Positions 11,631 through 17,852 of a stretch of DNA of 21,520 nucleotides are shown one piece after another. This stretch comes from a virus. Location: positions 1 through 21,520 of IMG/VR virus record IMGVR_UViG_3300027796_000054, one strand, 5' to 3'. The notes below the pieces were generated by a model. It saw only the letters and a program-made list of their open reading frames with translations, was not told the DNA's origin and made no database searches. Position numbers and translations under genes: made by a program. The stretch's first letter is position 1, and each line of letters begins with the position of its first letter.

Positions 11631-12788
11631 TTAAGAACTTGCTGGAGCAATTACAACAGTATCAGTCTTAGAATCTGCATAGTTTCCATATACATCTTTT
11701 CCTAATACAGTTATTACATAAGTACCAGCTGTTGTTGGTGTACCAGTTATAGCACCAGTACTAGCACTTATTACTAAACCTGCAGGTAATCCTAATGCTG
11801 ACCATACTGTCACACCAGTACTTGCATTAGTATCACTATAAGCCACGCCTACTTGACCATCAGCTAATGTTGGTTGAGTAATTGTTGGTAAAGTTCCTAC
11901 TAATTTAATTATTGCTTCACTACGTACAACTTCAGCACCAAATAATATGTTGCCTTCTAATACATAGTATCCTGGATATCCTTGATAGTTTCCTGGATAT
12001 TGTGCCATACTTGAGAAGAACATATCGCCTACAGCTCCTATTGCGTTTGCAAAGAAACCTTTTATTCCAGTAGCAGTAGTTCCATTAGTCAATACAGCTG
12101 AATCTTGTATTTCGAATGTGTCTATACCATAAGCAACGCCTACGATACCTTTATCAACACCTTCAACACCAGTTCTAGTTTCATATTTTAAGAAGCTAGT
12201 TAGTGATGTGACAAAATTTGCATATTCAGTAGCTATTAATCCTAGCATATAACCACCATATATTTTTCTGTTGAATAATTTAGCTTTTAAATTATTTAAT
12301 AAAGTTATATATGCTGTAGCATCTGCTGGAGCCCAAACAACGCATTGACCTACTGTGTAAGCCATAGCACCATCAGCACTACCAGTTATAGCTGTGTTGA
12401 ATTTGTCATAACCGAATTTATCGATTTCAAAAGCAACTTCACTATCTTTTAATTTAATTTGTCCGTCTAATGCACCAGCAACGTTAGTTCCTAACATAAC
12501 TGGACTTATTTTGAATCCATAGTCTAATGGTAATTGAGTTAAGTCAACCTTAACACTACCATAAGTAGCTAATGGAGTTGATATAGGTGTCAATATTTCT
12601 GATTGAGCTCTCTTTGTAATAGCTGAAGCAACTTGTTTAATTACCTCAATTATTGGAGTTCCTGTTTGACGTGCTACTTGCATGTAGCTTTGGTCTAAGA
12701 AATTCATAAATGTTGAATTATAATATAGATTTGCATAAGTTCTTTTAACAACTGATTGTAAATCCAAATTTAATGTAGCAAAGTTCAT
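11631..12788 (-). CDS. Major capsid protein with C-terminal Ig-like domain
   Basis: A 385-residue protein. Residues 1-~295 form the capsid core, with an N-arm, a helix region and several strands (VKVDLTQLPLDYGFKISPVM, SEVAFEIDKFGYDKF, GGYMLGLIATEYANFV). Residues ~300-385 are an added Ig-like domain of the putative-Ig (He_PIG) type: LPAGLVISASTGAITGTPTT followed by AGTYVITVLGKD. Such domains sit on the outside of capsids and can bind glycans or mucus, or simply stabilise the shell. GGGAGGT precedes the ATG. The order scaffold-capsid-connector supports the call. The fusion is continuous, so every capsid subunit should carry the domain unless it is trimmed. Confidence 0.88.
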   Translation of the reverse strand: MNFATLNLDLQSVVKRTYANLYYNSTFMNFLDQSYMQVARQTGTPIIEVIKQVASAITKRAQSEILTPISTPLATYGSVKVDLTQLPLDYGFKISPVMLGTNVAGALDGQIKLKDSEVAFEIDKFGYDKFNTAITGSADGAMAYTVGQCVVWAPADATAYITLLNNLKAKLFNRKIYGGYMLGLIATEYANFVTSLTSFLKYETRTGVEGVDKGIVGVAYGIDTFEIQDSAVLTNGTTATGIKGFFANAIGAVGDMFFSSMAQYPGNYQGYPGYYVLEGNILFGAEVVRSEAIIKLVGTLPTITQPTLADGQVGVAYSDTNASTGVTVWSALGLPAGLVISASTGAITGTPTTAGTYVITVLGKDVYGNYADSKTDTVVIAPASS

Positions 12789-12818: not shown

Positions 12819-13349
12819 TTATTTTGCCGTTAGACTAGATAGTGGTGTATCCCTAGTTATTTTAACTATAGTACCACCATTATTTTGTCCTTGATTACCC
12901 CCATTTAGACCACCTTCATTAGGTACTATTGGTTGGGTATTAGTAGTTTCTTTGAAATAAGTATCTTTAAATTTAGTTGCTATGCTTTCTACTGCTTTAA
13001 CATCGTCCTTTTCTTCTGAAAATAGACTTGATCTTAATTTAGATACTTCATCAAATTGATCTTCTTTAAATCCTTTGGAAATCATAGTCTTTTCTAATGA
13101 TACTTTTGATAAGTTAGCGTTAGTATCACTTAATTGTTTAACTGTGCTATTATAATTATTTTCTAATTGACTATATTTAGTAGTTAATTCGACTTCCTTA
13201 TCTTTTACAGCTTTGTCATAATCAGTTTTACTAACATAACCTTTCGTAGCTTCGCCTTTAACATCATTAGCTAATGCCTCAATGTCAAAGTCCTCATTTT
13301 TAAACTTGATATCCTTATTCTTTAAATATTTAGTTAAATCGATATTCAT
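12819..13349 (-). CDS. Capsid scaffold protein (GP20-like)
   Basis: A 176-residue acidic, helical protein resembling the minor structural GP20/scaffold family: a short N-terminal head (LTKYLKNKDIKFKNEDFD), a long coiled-coil region (about 35-90, with LENNYNSTVKQLSDTNANLS), then ISKGFKEDQFDEVSKLRSSL, a Gly/Asn linker and a C-terminal RDTPLSSLTAK that would contact capsid subunits. It should guide procapsid assembly and then leave. AAGGAGGA is a strong ribosome site. The ~110-base leader upstream holds two hairpins and the element described at 13377-13461. Confidence 0.85.
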   Translation of the reverse strand: MNIDLTKYLKNKDIKFKNEDFDIEALANDVKGEATKGYVSKTDYDKAVKDKEVELTTKYSQLENNYNSTVKQLSDTNANLSKVSLEKTMISKGFKEDQFDEVSKLRSSLFSEEKDDVKAVESIATKFKDTYFKETTNTQPIVPNEGGLNGGNQGQNNGGTIVKITRDTPLSSLTAK

Positions 13350-13376
13350 ATTTCTTCCTCCTTAAATTATCAGATT

Positions 13377-13461
13377 AAGAAGTGCATTATCGGTCGCGAC
13401 ACCTATGATAAATCATCTTTTAACTGGTGTATTATTATCGTAAACCAGTAATATGCTTTTT
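13377..13461. other. Structured intergenic element, inverted relative of the 16116-16199 RNA
   Basis: This is the second-largest gap in the head block, between minor head protein and scaffold. Read on the plus strand it has AGAAGTGCA (13378-13386), a hairpin GGT-CGCGAC-ACC (13392-13403), ATGATA (13405-13410), a hairpin ACTGGT/ACCAGT (13423-13428 and 13444-13449) and a CTTTTTAT run (13456-13463). The first three occur in the same order in the RNA on the minus strand at 16116-16199. I see no good plus-strand promoter. Read on the minus strand it is the leader of the scaffold mRNA and is complementary to that RNA. Whether it is a gene, a target or a relic is open. Confidence 0.55.
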
Positions 13462-14422
13462 ATAATCCCCCTTTCAATTCTTGTATTTTACCATTAAGCA
13501 ACGACACCTTACTTTTTGCTTTATCGTAATTTTCATAATCACCTAAGTTCTTATAAATAGACATATCCGTTTTTAGTTTTGTTCTTTGTAATTCAGTAGA
13601 TCTTATCTTTTGTTTGTTATCATATTTCTCTTGCCACTTATCACTATTGTAATCATTGTCTTGTAATTGAGATGAATCCCAATACAAAGTCCATTGATGT
13701 TTACAATTAGGATGTCCTACACCCCCCGCTATTGCTTCTTCTTGTGGTGGATATTTATTACTCTTGCCACTCTTACTATATACTTTACCTTGATAAGGCA
13801 TACATAGAGGACATGCGAACGGATGGGCTGGAAGATATACTAAATCATTTCCTAATAACTCCGAATCATAGTTAGTTCGATTCCAACCACTCTTATTTAA
13901 GTTAGTGTTGTAAACCATACTATTATAATTCGCTATATTATGATAACTTCTAATAGTTCCATTTTTATTGTAATATGGAATGTTATTTTGATAATCATCA
14001 TATTTGCTAACATAATTCGATAAATAAGTTCTTTTATCAACAAATCCATCTTCTAGTGTTTTATATCTACCACCATAGTATTTTGATATGTCTTTTGAGT
14101 ACTTATCTTCATACCTTTGATATACACTTTCAGGATCTATCTTATATATCTCATTATATTTTGCTTTTGGATTAACTACTTTATGTCCTTGACTATTATT
14201 TTCTTTAACCATTTTTTCTAATTCAACTATACGTTCTTTCATAAAATTATGGTCTACTTTATTCCATATCTTTTCAACTTCTTCTTTAAAGTAATCAACT
14301 GATTTACTATCAATCAATGAATTAAAGAATAGTTTTTTAGTCTTAAATATGAGGCTGTAATAATTAGTCATAACATAATCTACACTATCACCTATAAATA
14401 TACTCATAGGATCTCTATTCAT
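13460..14422 (-). CDS. Minor head protein (phage minor capsid 2 / MuF-like)
   Basis: A 320-residue protein that starts on the portal stop (TAATG overlap) with GGTGAAG as ribosome site. The C-terminal third has a metal-binding signature of this family: His200, CPLC at 204-207, then YQGKVYS, and HPNCKH at 237-242. The N-terminal two thirds are helical and Tyr/Asn/Lys-rich. SPP1 gp7-like proteins bind the portal and stay in the head, affecting DNA exit. Unlike some MuF proteins it has no added toxin or enzyme domain at its C-terminus; the last ~65 residues are a charged helix. Confidence 0.82.
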   Translation of the reverse strand: MNRDPMSIFIGDSVDYVMTNYYSLIFKTKKLFFNSLIDSKSVDYFKEEVEKIWNKVDHNFMKERIVELEKMVKENNSQGHKVVNPKAKYNEIYKIDPESVYQRYEDKYSKDISKYYGGRYKTLEDGFVDKRTYLSNYVSKYDDYQNNIPYYNKNGTIRSYHNIANYNSMVYNTNLNKSGWNRTNYDSELLGNDLVYLPAHPFACPLCMPYQGKVYSKSGKSNKYPPQEEAIAGGVGHPNCKHQWTLYWDSSQLQDNDYNSDKWQEKYDNKQKIRSTELQRTKLKTDMSIYKNLGDYENYDKAKSKVSLLNGKIQELKGGL

Positions 14423-15801
14423 TATACTTCACCATACTCCATCTTAATCGATTTCATCTCATCGTTATACGCTGTGACTAAATCGTCTACTTGCTTTTTA
14501 TTTTTTTCATTTCCTATAAAGTTTTCGTCAATGAGTTTATTTAGTATAGGTAATATTATCTTGGCTTTATATGTCATTGGTATTGCAGTCACACCTTGAA
14601 TCTTACTCATAACTGCTAACTTCTTCATATCATCAAACTTTTCATTTGCCCCAAAGTCCCAACTCAATTCACTAGGTAATAGATTTTCGGTTATATTTAA
14701 GCTTGTTTGTGCTTTAACTATATTTTCCATTAACTTGTTTATTTGAGGTGTTATTTGTGTCTTTATTGCTTCTACTGTCATATCGCTTGAATTTTTACTT
14801 ACATCGACATTTGCAGTATTTTGATAAGCATCTTTTTCGTATCCGAATGATACGGGGCTTAATCCAGCCATTTGTATTACTTGATAATCATAAAACTTAA
14901 ATGTATCAACGTATTGTGTGACTCTTATATCACCTTGTAAGAAGTTGAATAGTTGATGATCTTTATCACCAGGTAATAATGTAAAGTAATCTTGTAATTT
15001 GCCTACTGATATAGTGTCTACTTGATACGCCGTACTTCCTGGCTTCCAAGCTGTGACCATATCGCCACTTTGATAGTGTTGACTAGTCACAATTCTAGTT
15101 CTAGTCTTTTCTATCTCATCGGCAAGTGTATTAACTACTTTCATTTCTTCATTTAAGAACTTTTTACTATCCTTAAAGAACTCTAACCCTAAATCTATAT
15201 TAATCAATACTTCGTAAGGTAATATATATCTTGGTTTGTATTCACTTCCAGTCATTCTATTGAAATGACCTATGTTTATTTCCGTTTTTTCATTTGTTGA
15301 GCTTAATTGATAAGCTTGAAACGTTAAGTCAGTATTACCATTTAATAATTTGATATTACGTCTTAATATATATGTATATTTATCATCTTTACTTATTGCG
15401 TCAAAATCTTGTTCTATAGAAGCTTCGATTACTTTATCAAACTTCTGTACTAAATCGAATATATCGGATCTTTTAAAACTTTCAAGATATATCTTATCAT
15501 CATATTTGTGTATGTATATAAATGATTCTTTTTGATATACTGCCAATTCTAATGATTCTTTAAATGTAGGCATTAACCACCTTATATCTAAATTATCTGT
15601 TTGTGTGACTAAGTCACTTCCAAATATTTGATTTATTATGTATGTAGCTATCTTCTTTGCTGAAGGGGCTACACAATATTGTGATTCATAAGGTATATTG
15701 CTTTTACCATTTGTTATACCATTTTGTATTATTGTAGCTTCAATCTTTATGTATGGAGCTCCTAGAACGTTAAAAGCAGGTCTTACTCGAGCGTTGTTCA
15801 T
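14422..15801 (-). CDS. Portal protein
   Basis: A 459-residue protein of the SPP1-type portal group in size and position. Typical stretches are the N-terminal SAKKIATYIINQIFGSDLVT, LELAVYQKESFIYIHKYDDK in the wing, the long stem helix region DSKKFLNEEMKVVNTLADEI followed by EKTRTRIVTSQHY, and the clip-crown segment QVIQMAGLSPVSFGYEKDAY. The C-terminal ~150 residues are helical. It forms the dodecameric DNA channel at the capsid vertex and docks the terminase. Its ATG overlaps the upstream stop (ATGA), with AAGGAG about twelve bases upstream. Confidence 0.88.
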   Translation of the reverse strand: MNNARVRPAFNVLGAPYIKIEATIIQNGITNGKSNIPYESQYCVAPSAKKIATYIINQIFGSDLVTQTDNLDIRWLMPTFKESLELAVYQKESFIYIHKYDDKIYLESFKRSDIFDLVQKFDKVIEASIEQDFDAISKDDKYTYILRRNIKLLNGNTDLTFQAYQLSSTNEKTEINIGHFNRMTGSEYKPRYILPYEVLINIDLGLEFFKDSKKFLNEEMKVVNTLADEIEKTRTRIVTSQHYQSGDMVTAWKPGSTAYQVDTISVGKLQDYFTLLPGDKDHQLFNFLQGDIRVTQYVDTFKFYDYQVIQMAGLSPVSFGYEKDAYQNTANVDVSKNSSDMTVEAIKTQITPQINKLMENIVKAQTSLNITENLLPSELSWDFGANEKFDDMKKLAVMSKIQGVTAIPMTYKAKIILPILNKLIDENFIGNEKNKKQVDDLVTAYNDEMKSIKMEYGEV

Positions 15802-16088
15802 TCTACATCAACTCCTTCGTATAATTTTGATTCTACATGTGTTTCTCTTGTAATGTCATTGTGATAAAGGATACGCATAGGTACTAACACCACCTTAGCA
15901 TAATTAGTCTTAAATATATGTTTTCTAAACCACACATTTAGAACGTATGCTTTTTTTAATGGTTTTTCATCTGCGTCTACTTTAATCATTTTCACACATT
16001 GATTTAAGTAATATATATATAGTTTCCACTTTTTATTAGTGAATCTAGTTTTTATATTGTTAAATATTGTTTTAATTTTTTCTAACAT
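15798..16088 (-). CDS. Small basic protein of unknown function upstream of portal
   Basis: A 96-residue, strongly basic protein (MLEKIKTIFNNIKTRFTNKK at the start) that I do not recognise. It has a helical N-terminus, a central strand-like part (YAKVVLVPMRILYHND) and an acidic end. GAGGTGA lies five bases before the ATG, and its stop overlaps the portal start (ATGA), so the two are translationally coupled. It is the first gene after the promoter/RNA element at 16116-16234. A role in portal assembly or DNA packaging is suggested by position only. Confidence 0.6.
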   Translation of the reverse strand: MLEKIKTIFNNIKTRFTNKKWKLYIYYLNQCVKMIKVDADEKPLKKAYVLNVWFRKHIFKTNYAKVVLVPMRILYHNDITRETHVESKLYEGVDVE

Positions 16089-16115
16089 AGAATCACCTCT
16101 CTATTTCTATCCGTA

Positions 16116-16199
16116 CAATAAAAAGAAGCCCACAACAACCATTAATGGCTATCATGTGCTTCTCTGTGTTTCGCGACACTTTTTATTGCACTTCTATGT
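16116..16199 (-). ncRNA. Putative ~84-nt structured small RNA or leader RNA
   Basis: A consensus promoter (16206-16234) predicts a start near 16199. The RNA then has AGAAGTGCA (16195-16187), an A-rich segment, a hairpin GTGT-CGCGAA-ACAC (16179-16166) and a long terminator hairpin ending in TTCTTTTTATT. In addition CAATAAAAAG (16188-16179) is a perfect 10-bp complement of CTTTTTATTG (16125-16116), which could close the whole RNA as a three-way junction or compete with the terminator. No ORF with a ribosome site is inside. It may be a free small RNA, or the leader of the portal operon released by antitermination. I do not recognise a known RNA family. Confidence 0.6.
16117..16163 (-). terminator. 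Intrinsic terminator 30-80 bases after the promoter
   Basis: On the minus strand AGAAGC (16163-16158) pairs with GCTTCT (16129-16124). ACA/TGT extends it past a two-base bulge, and an inner AGCCA/TGGTT hairpin has a TTAA loop. TTTTATT follows directly. It ends the putative small RNA. Readthrough would enter the 96-residue gene and the portal gene, whose ribosome site (GAGGTGA) is about 20 bases further on. Confidence 0.8.
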
Positions 16200-16205
16200 A
16201 TATTT

Positions 16206-16234
16206 ATTATATCATTTTATTTTTCTAATGTCAA
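16206..16234 (-). promoter_or_regulatory. Perfect consensus sigma-A/sigma-70 promoter
   Basis: On the minus strand TTGACA (16234-16229) and TATAAT (16211-16206) are both exact consensus boxes, separated by 17 bases, with TGA before the -10 giving an extended -10. The -35 overlaps codons near the end of the Com-like gene (Leu-Thr). Predicted transcription starts near 16199. It should be very strong and needs only the host housekeeping polymerase, so it may fire before late gene expression. Confidence 0.88.
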
Positions 16235-16435
16235 ATCTCTCTTATAAGATTTAACGTGTATATAATGGGTTGGATATATTTCGTAGACTTCTATCATTCT
16301 ACAAGATCTACAAGGTATTTCTATAATCAAAGGTAGCGTAATATTGGTCTTAGTAAACACTTCAATAGACTTGTTATACTTTTCTATATCTACATTCATT
16401 AAGAATCGTTTTGTTGATTTACAATATATTTCCAT
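16217..16435 (-). CDS. Small Com-like zinc-finger protein, degenerate
   Basis: A 72-residue protein. Cys5 in MEIYCKSTKRFL and the pair Cys42/Cys45 in LIIEIPCRSCRMIEVYE resemble the Com family of small zinc-ribbon proteins (Mu Com binds mom mRNA), where the pattern is CxxC-KLL then IEIxCxxC. Here the second cysteine is Thr8, so zinc binding may be lost or shifted. AAGAGGG is the ribosome site. It follows the large terminase by 19 bases, and its 3' end carries the -35 box of the downstream promoter. The family link is moderate; function is unknown. Confidence 0.5.
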   Translation of the reverse strand: MEIYCKSTKRFLMNVDIEKYNKSIEVFTKTNITLPLIIEIPCRSCRMIEVYEIYPTHYIHVKSYKRDLTLEK

Positions 16436-16454: not shown

Positions 16455-17852
16455 TTAAACTATAGGACACCTATTTGTATCCGCCCATTCATCAATTAGA
16501 TAACGTGTTGCGTCTATTGAGTGGTCTAATTCCTTTTTATAGCAATTCTTACCTTCTTTTACAGACTTAACACTATCATATTGATATGATTCATATTCTA
16601 ATAATGAATCGTCCTTACCACTTAATTTCATAGTTCCATCGGGATAAAACATTTCCACACTAGGGGCTTCTAATATATAAAATAATTCTTTATACATTAA
16701 CGCTTGTAAGTGTTGCACACCTGCATCTACACTTCCAGCACCTTTTTTACTAGTGCTATATGGTATATTATCAGCGTCTAATCTATTAGTAAAGTGTGTT
16801 GCTTCACTATCTATTACGTTTGTAGTAATAGGGACATGTGGATATAACTTTTTCAAGTAAACCATAAAGAATCTTAACTGATTACTATAAAATTCCGTCG
16901 TAGGATTTGTTCCATCTTTACTAGGATCATGATAATAACATTGTAGTCTAACTAATATCCACTTTCTAGTAGATACATTGTAGCATAATGCTATAGGTAC
17001 AAACGTAGTAGGATTAACACTACCATAATCGATACCTAATCCTATTTCGCGTATTTGTAATCCATATAATGATTCTAGTTTGTTTATTCTATCAAATACT
17101 CTACCTTCCGCTACTACCCATTTGTTAAATATCTTTTGTTCTCTTAACGTCCCAGGTGGGAACATTTCAACAACTTTTCTTATCTTATCCGCAGTATCTA
17201 ACTTTGGGTTGTCGTATGGAAAGAATATTAAATGTCTAGCATCTTTTCTTTTGTCTAGTATATCACGTTTATATGGGTGAGCTTCACTTCCCTCAACGTT
17301 AAATGAATCTATTGATTTTAAATAAGGATGTCCTGCGTATGAAACTTGACGACCAGGTATTTCATTAAATGGTTGTTGTAATTGTTGTTGTGAATAGATA
17401 CGGGCTGATTCATCAACCCACCTAAATATTATAGGTTTACCTAATATCTTATTAAACGATAGATAATTATTAAATCCAAAGAAATATATCTTTAAATTGA
17501 ATATCTTTAAGTACTTTTCATTTCCCGATCCATACTTTAATTCATAATCTTCGCCTTTGGTAAATCCCATTTCTATTAAGAAGTTTTCTATTACGTCTAC
17601 AACGTTTCCTTTTAATGTTTCGGTAGTCCAACCTATTATAGCTCCATAATAACGATTATTAGGATCGTATTCATATAACGCTTGGGCATATAATATAACA
17701 CCCAAACATATTATAAATGTCTTACCCGATTGTGTACTGCCTAAGCAATAGATATCATTTATGTCTTCTGCTTGTATAAGGTTTAACGTTGTTTGTTGTT
17801 TCTTCGATATCTTTAGCTTCAACTTTGATAGGTTCACTTCTTGATTCATCAT
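16455..17852 (-). CDS. terL: Terminase large subunit
   Basis: A 465-residue packaging motor and nuclease. ATPase part: Walker A GSTQSGKT at 38-45, Walker B IIFRWVDE at 141-148, and a possible coupling motif near 183-191 (SFNVEGSEA). Nuclease part: Asp275 in GLGIDYGS, Asp348 in VIDSE and Asp447 in SIDATRY, the three acidic residues of the RNase H-like fold. The ATG at 17852 has GAAGGTGAG at good spacing, although it lies inside the previous gene, giving a 98-base overlap. It cuts concatemeric DNA and drives it through the portal, using ATP. Confidence 0.95.
   Translation of the reverse strand: MMNQEVNLSKLKLKISKKQQTTLNLIQAEDINDIYCLGSTQSGKTFIICLGVILYAQALYEYDPNNRYYGAIIGWTTETLKGNVVDVIENFLIEMGFTKGEDYELKYGSGNEKYLKIFNLKIYFFGFNNYLSFNKILGKPIIFRWVDESARIYSQQQLQQPFNEIPGRQVSYAGHPYLKSIDSFNVEGSEAHPYKRDILDKRKDARHLIFFPYDNPKLDTADKIRKVVEMFPPGTLREQKIFNKWVVAEGRVFDRINKLESLYGLQIREIGLGIDYGSVNPTTFVPIALCYNVSTRKWILVRLQCYYHDPSKDGTNPTTEFYSNQLRFFMVYLKKLYPHVPITTNVIDSEATHFTNRLDADNIPYSTSKKGAGSVDAGVQHLQALMYKELFYILEAPSVEMFYPDGTMKLSGKDDSLLEYESYQYDSVKSVKEGKNCYKKELDHSIDATRYLIDEWADTNRCPIV

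Follow-up and report, generated by a model that had tools for sequence, protein, structure and literature searches.

A candidate small RNA encoded between the terminase and portal genes of gut and rumen phages is complementary to the scaffold-gene leader and is predicted to activate scaffold translation

Trans-acting small RNAs (sRNAs) such as DsrA for rpoS and RNAIII for hla activate their targets by binding a leader segment that otherwise masks the Shine-Dalgarno sequence (SD). Synthetic toehold switches work in a related manner, with a trigger RNA that opens a hairpin hiding the ribosome-binding site. Lambda 6S RNA starts at pR', a strong promoter that lies by the late genes close to a terminator and is subject to Q antitermination, while antitermination RNAs of the put/nut type act in cis at the start of operons, often at more than one site per phage. 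The pRNA of phi29 has a characteristic fold and works with the phi29-type packaging motor. According to the available part of a 2025 review, known phage sRNAs act mostly by repression, on lysogeny or host genes; the examples described there repress lysogeny genes, sponge host sRNAs or affect host genes, and none named in that part is dedicated to a scaffold or capsid gene of the phage itself (PMC12197685). Among the RNAs it covers, the c4 antisense RNA of P1 and P7 represses an antirepressor gene, and P22 sar, lambda OOP and aQ are cis-encoded antisense RNAs lying opposite or adjoining their targets (PMC12197685). In the open-access literature we found no phage sRNA acting on scaffold, capsid or other structural genes.

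The DNA analysed here (the window) is a whole virus record of 21,520 bases from a gut or rumen phage. It carries a promoter, a compact structured RNA and a terminator between terL and the head genes, all of them real sequence features, and we consider it likely that they form the gene of a base-pairing sRNA that activates translation of the phage's own scaffold gene. In kind the element is a base-pairing sRNA; new are the family, the structural-gene target, the predicted activation by SD release and the repeated re-matching of seed and target. As in DsrA-rpoS and RNAIII-hla, the leader segment that hides the SD is what the short RNA would bind, but here the RNA is phage-encoded, it targets the phage's own scaffold gene, its seed drifts and is re-matched, and activation is a prediction. 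Toehold switches likewise involve opening of a hairpin over the ribosome-binding site by RNA, whereas the phage system is natural, the hairpin arm is itself the binding site and some phages offer little free toehold. Lambda 6S RNA shares the strong promoter with a close terminator near late genes; the window RNA is shorter and covaries with an mRNA leader. The c4 RNA, as the available part of the review presents it, also binds a leader in its own phage around the ribosome-binding site, through complementary parts in loops (PMC12197685); the window RNA differs in being directed at a structural gene, in ending at a terminator of its own and in most likely being an activator. Membership in the c4 family was considered and rejected, as neither the window nor 10 relatives gave an Rfam match and the target is the scaffold gene, not the ant operon. 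With P22 sar, lambda OOP and aQ, as described there, the window RNA has in common that small phage RNAs base pair with phage mRNAs, but it is encoded about 2.8 kb from its target and its complementarity is partial (PMC12197685). If our reading is true, an sRNA dedicated to the phage's own scaffold gene and kept across dozens of phages would add a new control level for head assembly. The phages also supply a natural set of many matched riboregulator pairs that could be studied in laboratory strains, without the uncultured hosts.

The long genes of the window lie on the minus strand, and the order is terS, terL, orf72, the RNA, orf96, portal, minor head protein, scaffold, major capsid protein and tail genes. 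The gene for the terminase large subunit (terL, 16455-17852) matches PHROG_2. It is followed by the small conserved gene orf72 (16217..16435), whose end at 16217 falls inside the promoter, while orf96 (15798..16088), another small gene conserved in relatives, lies directly 3' of the terminator, followed by the genes for the portal (14422-15801) and the minor head protein (13460-14422), all on the minus strand. The proposed regulated gene (12819..13349, minus strand) lies between those for the minor head protein and the major capsid protein and encodes a head scaffolding protein of 176 aa; PHROG_2303, a head scaffolding protein, was matched by 9 of 12 family members (best E 9.6e-5). The structure model of the next product (11631..12788, minus strand; pLDDT 68) has phage capsids as top PDB matches (E 2e-11) and points to a major capsid protein with an HK97-like fold, which also bears a C-terminal Ig-like domain (PF05345). 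The PHROG_2303 matches and the HK97-like fold of the next gene therefore establish the order portal, minor head protein, scaffold, capsid.

The promoter is of the sigma-A/sigma-70 type (16206..16234, minus strand), with TTGACA at 16234-16229, a spacer of 17 nt, TATAAT at 16211-16206 and TG before the -10 box. A preliminary description of this DNA had called it a perfect promoter with an extended -10, and of the 87 promoter-like sites that 15.5 kb contain it is indeed the only one to score 12/12, the runners-up reaching 10/12. The predicted RNA of about 80 nt would run from about 16199 to 16116 on the minus strand, both ends being placed from the sequence, and comprises a 5' seed, hairpin 1 and an intrinsic terminator. 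That description had also named the intrinsic terminator, the compact structure and the absence of coding sequence. These claims were borne out by a folding energy of -25.9 kcal/mol (z = -4.2), with 0 of 200 shuffles equally stable, and by the lack of any minus-strand ORF of at least 50 aa in 16089-16216. The terminator hairpin (16123..16164, minus strand), with a U run at 16124-16120, is kept in relatives and begins GAAGCAY in most. Both features of a free-standing gene, a promoter and an intrinsic terminator, are present in the window and most relatives. The hairpin with a CGCGAA loop reported earlier (GUGU-CGCGAA-ACAC, 16179-16166) is present and corresponds to the conserved hairpin 1, but its sequence is lineage-specific. 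Similarly, the perfect 10-bp pairing of the RNA start with the tail (CAAUAAAAAG/CUUUUUAUUG) exists in the window but is peculiar to this phage, the equivalent comparison giving 2-7 nt in the other 71 phages; it ties up part of the seed (predicted probability of being free 0.075, net energy -4.4 kcal/mol). The statement that the RNA belongs to no known family holds for Rfam, where neither the window RNA nor 10 relatives reached the gathering cut-off of any family and relaxing the E-value brought up no real match (best score 14.8 bits against a gathering cut-off of 61.7).

Relatives were gathered by terL and portal searches and a subsequent portal alignment, which yielded about 100 IMG/VR loci and 12 loci from bacterial assemblies. 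The assemblies are labelled mainly as uncultured Bacilli, Erysipelotrichaceae and Clostridia, several being from ruminant gut samples, and the portal identity of the relatives to the window is mostly 52-62%. Among 50,697 phage records nothing similar was found by DNA or portal protein, and named phages include no close relative, the terL matches being distant with at most 27% identity among the matches listed. Nearly all relatives share the synteny terL-orf72-RNA-orf96-portal and have, immediately 5' of orf96-portal, a promoter-like site, AAGUGCA near the predicted RNA start, a small hairpin, an intrinsic terminator and then the orf96 start. Homologues devoid of promoter and fold, which the preliminary description had named as counter-evidence, were looked for; nearly all relatives keep the element. 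Of the searches it had suggested, Rfam gave no match, and a covariance model built from 27 RNAs recovers the RNA in most other lineages. This subset was used in place of a MAFFT alignment of all 71 sRNAs, which folded poorly because the architecture of hairpin 1 varies between lineages. Hairpin 1 and the terminator covary: of the 19 base pairs in the model, 12 have changed in both partners without loss of pairing. A bulged G in hairpin 1 is conserved. One sense-strand copy of the RNA is found in each of 12 contigs of 32-37 kb; the copy on the L106 contig scores below the model cut-off and is visible in the sequence. Matches of the model on the antisense strand (e.g. window 13372-13461, plus strand) were considered as a second gene and rejected, being weak and located on scaffold leaders, where such matches are expected from the reverse complement of the seed.

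In most relatives the promoter at the RNA scores better than shuffled sequence (median 10/12 versus 8/12). Among the relatives scanned, no promoter before the RNA was visible in L086, L093, L094, L106, L108 and L109. In these phages the RNA lies directly or closely 3' of orf72, and it may be released from a longer transcript. In L009 a 1.4-kb cassette has been inserted after orf72, and the RNA remains beside orf96; the cassette (L009 5540-7080) consists of several small genes with their own promoter, between orf72 and the RNA.

The main feature of the element, which the preliminary description had missed, is the complementarity of its 5' end to the scaffold leader. When the 5' word of the RNA was scanned for, its reverse complement turned up, in the window and in most relatives, on the same coding strand within the leader of the gene that follows the one for the minor head protein. 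In the window, the 5' end (U)AGAAGUGCA contains the seed (16187..16195, minus strand, about +5 to +13 of the RNA), which is the exact reverse complement of the target UGCACUUCU (13378..13386, minus strand), about 2.8 kb downstream. The target is followed by the SD of the scaffold gene (GGAGG, 13357..13361, minus strand; ATG at 13349-13347). Across most phages the matched seed comprises 9-15 nt (median 10), and the net binding energy is favourable in 66 of 72. A ranking by duplex energy over the whole locus does not always place the best hybridisation site in the scaffold leader, because the seed is short and purine-rich; this ranking did not single out the leader and was therefore left out as evidence, so that the case is made by covariation at a fixed place.

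This covariation makes the seed-leader pairing well supported by comparison of the sequences. The core AAGUGC/GCACUU is fixed in 53 phages and its flanks vary jointly on both sides; position -1 of the pairing, for example, is G-C in 42, A-U in 7 and U-A in 2. In the joint alignment 41 cells have changed on both sides with pairing kept, compared to 19.2 (SD 3.0) after shuffling, and 0 of 500 shuffles were as high, counts which are not strict probabilities as the sequences are related. Sliding the partner by 1-3 columns lowers the paired cells from 86% to 30-49%, a drop to which the fixed core contributes, since rows had been picked for the core. For 72 phages the hybrid energy of own pairs is -17.4 versus -14.07 (SD 0.28) for permuted pairs, about 12 SD better, and in 28 divergent phages the advantage of own pairs is still nearly 10 SD. 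Letters have been inserted on both the seed and the target side in L044, L088 and L112, and three lineages (L086/L099, L094/L106 and L108/L109) have replaced the whole seed on both sides and are still matched. Changes are also seen between close pairs: L094 (AGGAAUAGUAAAAGU/ACUUUUACUAUUCCU) and L106 (AGGAAUAUUAUAAGU/ACUUAUAAUAUUCCU) differ at two positions on both sides with portal DNA 83% identical, and L108 (GGCAAAAAAGCU/AGCUUUUUUGCC) and L109 (GGCAAAGAAGCU/AGCUUCUUUGCC) at one position on both sides with portal DNA 81% identical. The seeds of L088 (AGAAAGUGCAAAAU), L091 (AGAUAAGUGCAU) and L112 (AGAAAAAGUGC) each have an exactly matched target. In L068 and L075 a recognisable RNA shows little or no complementarity to its own leader, and RNA and target are both absent from L117, a relative from a Clostridia assembly that is also without orf72. 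The leader of L093 (on the same contig as L012) does not contain UGCACUUC and has a different 17/18 match; the 5' word of the RNA persists in this phage though the target match has moved.

A second contact is possible between the hairpin-1 segment GUCGCGA (16171..16177, minus strand) and UCGCGAC in the scaffold leader (13393..13399, minus strand). L004 and L014 carry UGUUGCAAC/GUUGCAACA on the two sides instead, and from the window to L014 UCGCGA becomes UUGCAA in both the RNA hairpin and the leader. As each word is a palindrome, this contact is weaker evidence.

A leader segment predicted to fold onto the SD overlaps the seed target in most phages. The window leader is predicted to form an 8-bp hairpin (13358..13382, minus strand) between CUUCUUAA (13382-13375) and UUAAGGAG (13365-13358), which covers GGAG of the SD, so that the probability of an unpaired SD is 0.0013 in the free leader and 0.22 with the seed target occupied. 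Occupancy was modelled by forbidding pairs in the target segment. Over 72 phages the predicted median rises from 0.001 to 0.150 upon occupancy, with accessibility up more than twofold in 60 and down in 5, whereas occupying control segments of equal length in the same leaders gave a median of 0.0012. The true target ranks within the top 10% of leader segments for SD release in 55 of 72. Moreover, anti-SD arms fit the SD flank of their own phage somewhat better (-6.45) than that of another phage (-6.02, SD 0.13). We infer the direction of regulation from these folding models: activation is favoured because occupancy of the target opens the SD and control segments do not, net binding is favourable and anti-SD arm and SD flank match within phages. 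Since seed and scaffold leader change together across dozens of phages, the RNA most likely switches scaffold production on while heads are assembled.

We propose that host RNA polymerase would start at the strong promoter after terL and stop at the intrinsic terminator; the resulting RNA, about 80 nt long, would carry the seed of 9-15 nt at its 5' tip. In the free leader of the scaffold mRNA, the seed-binding segment would be folded onto the SD and mask it. Pairing of the seed with this leader, to which the covariation points, would free the SD and raise translation of the scaffold gene and perhaps of the following capsid gene too. Scaffold and capsid output would thereby be tied to transcription of the head region, with terminase and portal accumulating first. 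The RNA most likely acts in trans; long-range pairing inside a read-through transcript is a possible alternative. The chances are about even, in our judgement, that in a whole clade of Firmicutes phages from gut and rumen capsid assembly is governed by such a toehold-like switch, in which seed, scaffold anti-SD arm and SD flank coevolve as a three-part code and private sRNA-scaffold pairs would not cross-activate in co-infection.

The same RNA could also bind the same leader and repress: a duplex 5' of the SD would block ribosomes or recruit RNase III, and scaffold synthesis would drop as the RNA accumulates. In most phages the target is located at roughly -20 to -45 relative to the start codon, 2-24 nt away from the SD and near enough to interfere, and the antisense RNAs P22 sar, P1/P7 c4 and lambda OOP repress according to the available part of the review (PMC12197685). 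We nevertheless regard repression as unlikely, since for 60 of 72 phages the models predict that pairing exposes the SD, an effect that control segments do not have, and since the better match of anti-SD arm and SD flank within phages is expected if the hairpin matters. Alternatively, the shared GAAGTGCA word might be a DNA operator for a phage regulator, placed near the promoter and near the scaffold gene, with RNA pairing being incidental. The core AAGTGC, invariant in 53 phages, would suit such an operator, but seeds and targets change in step, down to matched insertions and complete replacement, the two words are in antisense orientation throughout and the RNA hairpins covary, which makes this reading very improbable.

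The preliminary description had left open whether the element is a phage small RNA, a cis-acting antitermination leader or a packaging RNA. The small RNA was right in outline. A leader of the orf96-portal operon would use the terminator as an attenuator, overcome by an antiterminator or by pairing of the 5' element with the 5' arm of the terminator. In agreement with this, the RNA is always immediately 5' of orf96-portal, even with a cassette inserted ahead (L009), and base pairs can form between GUGC of the 5' element and GCAC/GCAU of the terminator arm, a pairing kept in L108/L109 (GGGC/GCUC) and L006 (AUGC/GCAU). As the main function, however, a cis leader appears improbable, as it leaves the covariation with a scaffold leader 2.8 kb away unexplained and the element, with its one sense copy, is not repeated at other operons. 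A second, cis role of the 5' element through pairing with the terminator arm is possible, and so is a secondary attenuating effect of the terminator on the portal operon, because the RNA always adjoins orf96-portal upstream. An antitermination leader of the put/nut or 6S type is not supported as the main function: repeated copies, as in processive antitermination, were not found in 12 contigs of 32-37 kb from relatives, each with one sense copy, and it is with the scaffold leader, in trans, that the RNA covaries. The position next to terL would suit a packaging RNA such as phi29 pRNA, but this reading is hardly credible, because the phage encodes both the large (PHROG_2) and the small terminase subunit and what is conserved in the RNA is a seed covarying with an mRNA; moreover, Rfam gave no match and the fold is one small hairpin plus a terminator.

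Further elements were noticed in the scaffold leaders. A perfect palindrome of 6-8 nt lies between target and SD in 44 of 52 distinct leaders, compared to 26% expected. The palindromes differ by phage (UUCUAGAA, GUCGAC, UCGCGA, GCUAGC, CUCAUGAG) and are absent from the window and L014; they possibly serve mRNA dimerisation or are a dimeric binding site. In the leaders of L045, L046, L007 and others a conserved element UAGAC...GUCUA is located 5' of the target. Pairing of its loop with the bases immediately 5' of the sRNA target (CUUGCUU/AAGCAAG, UCCUGCUU/AAGCAGGA) is possible and would result in an H-type pseudoknot-like structure with conserved AUAAACUUU, which may bind a protein or join in the switch.
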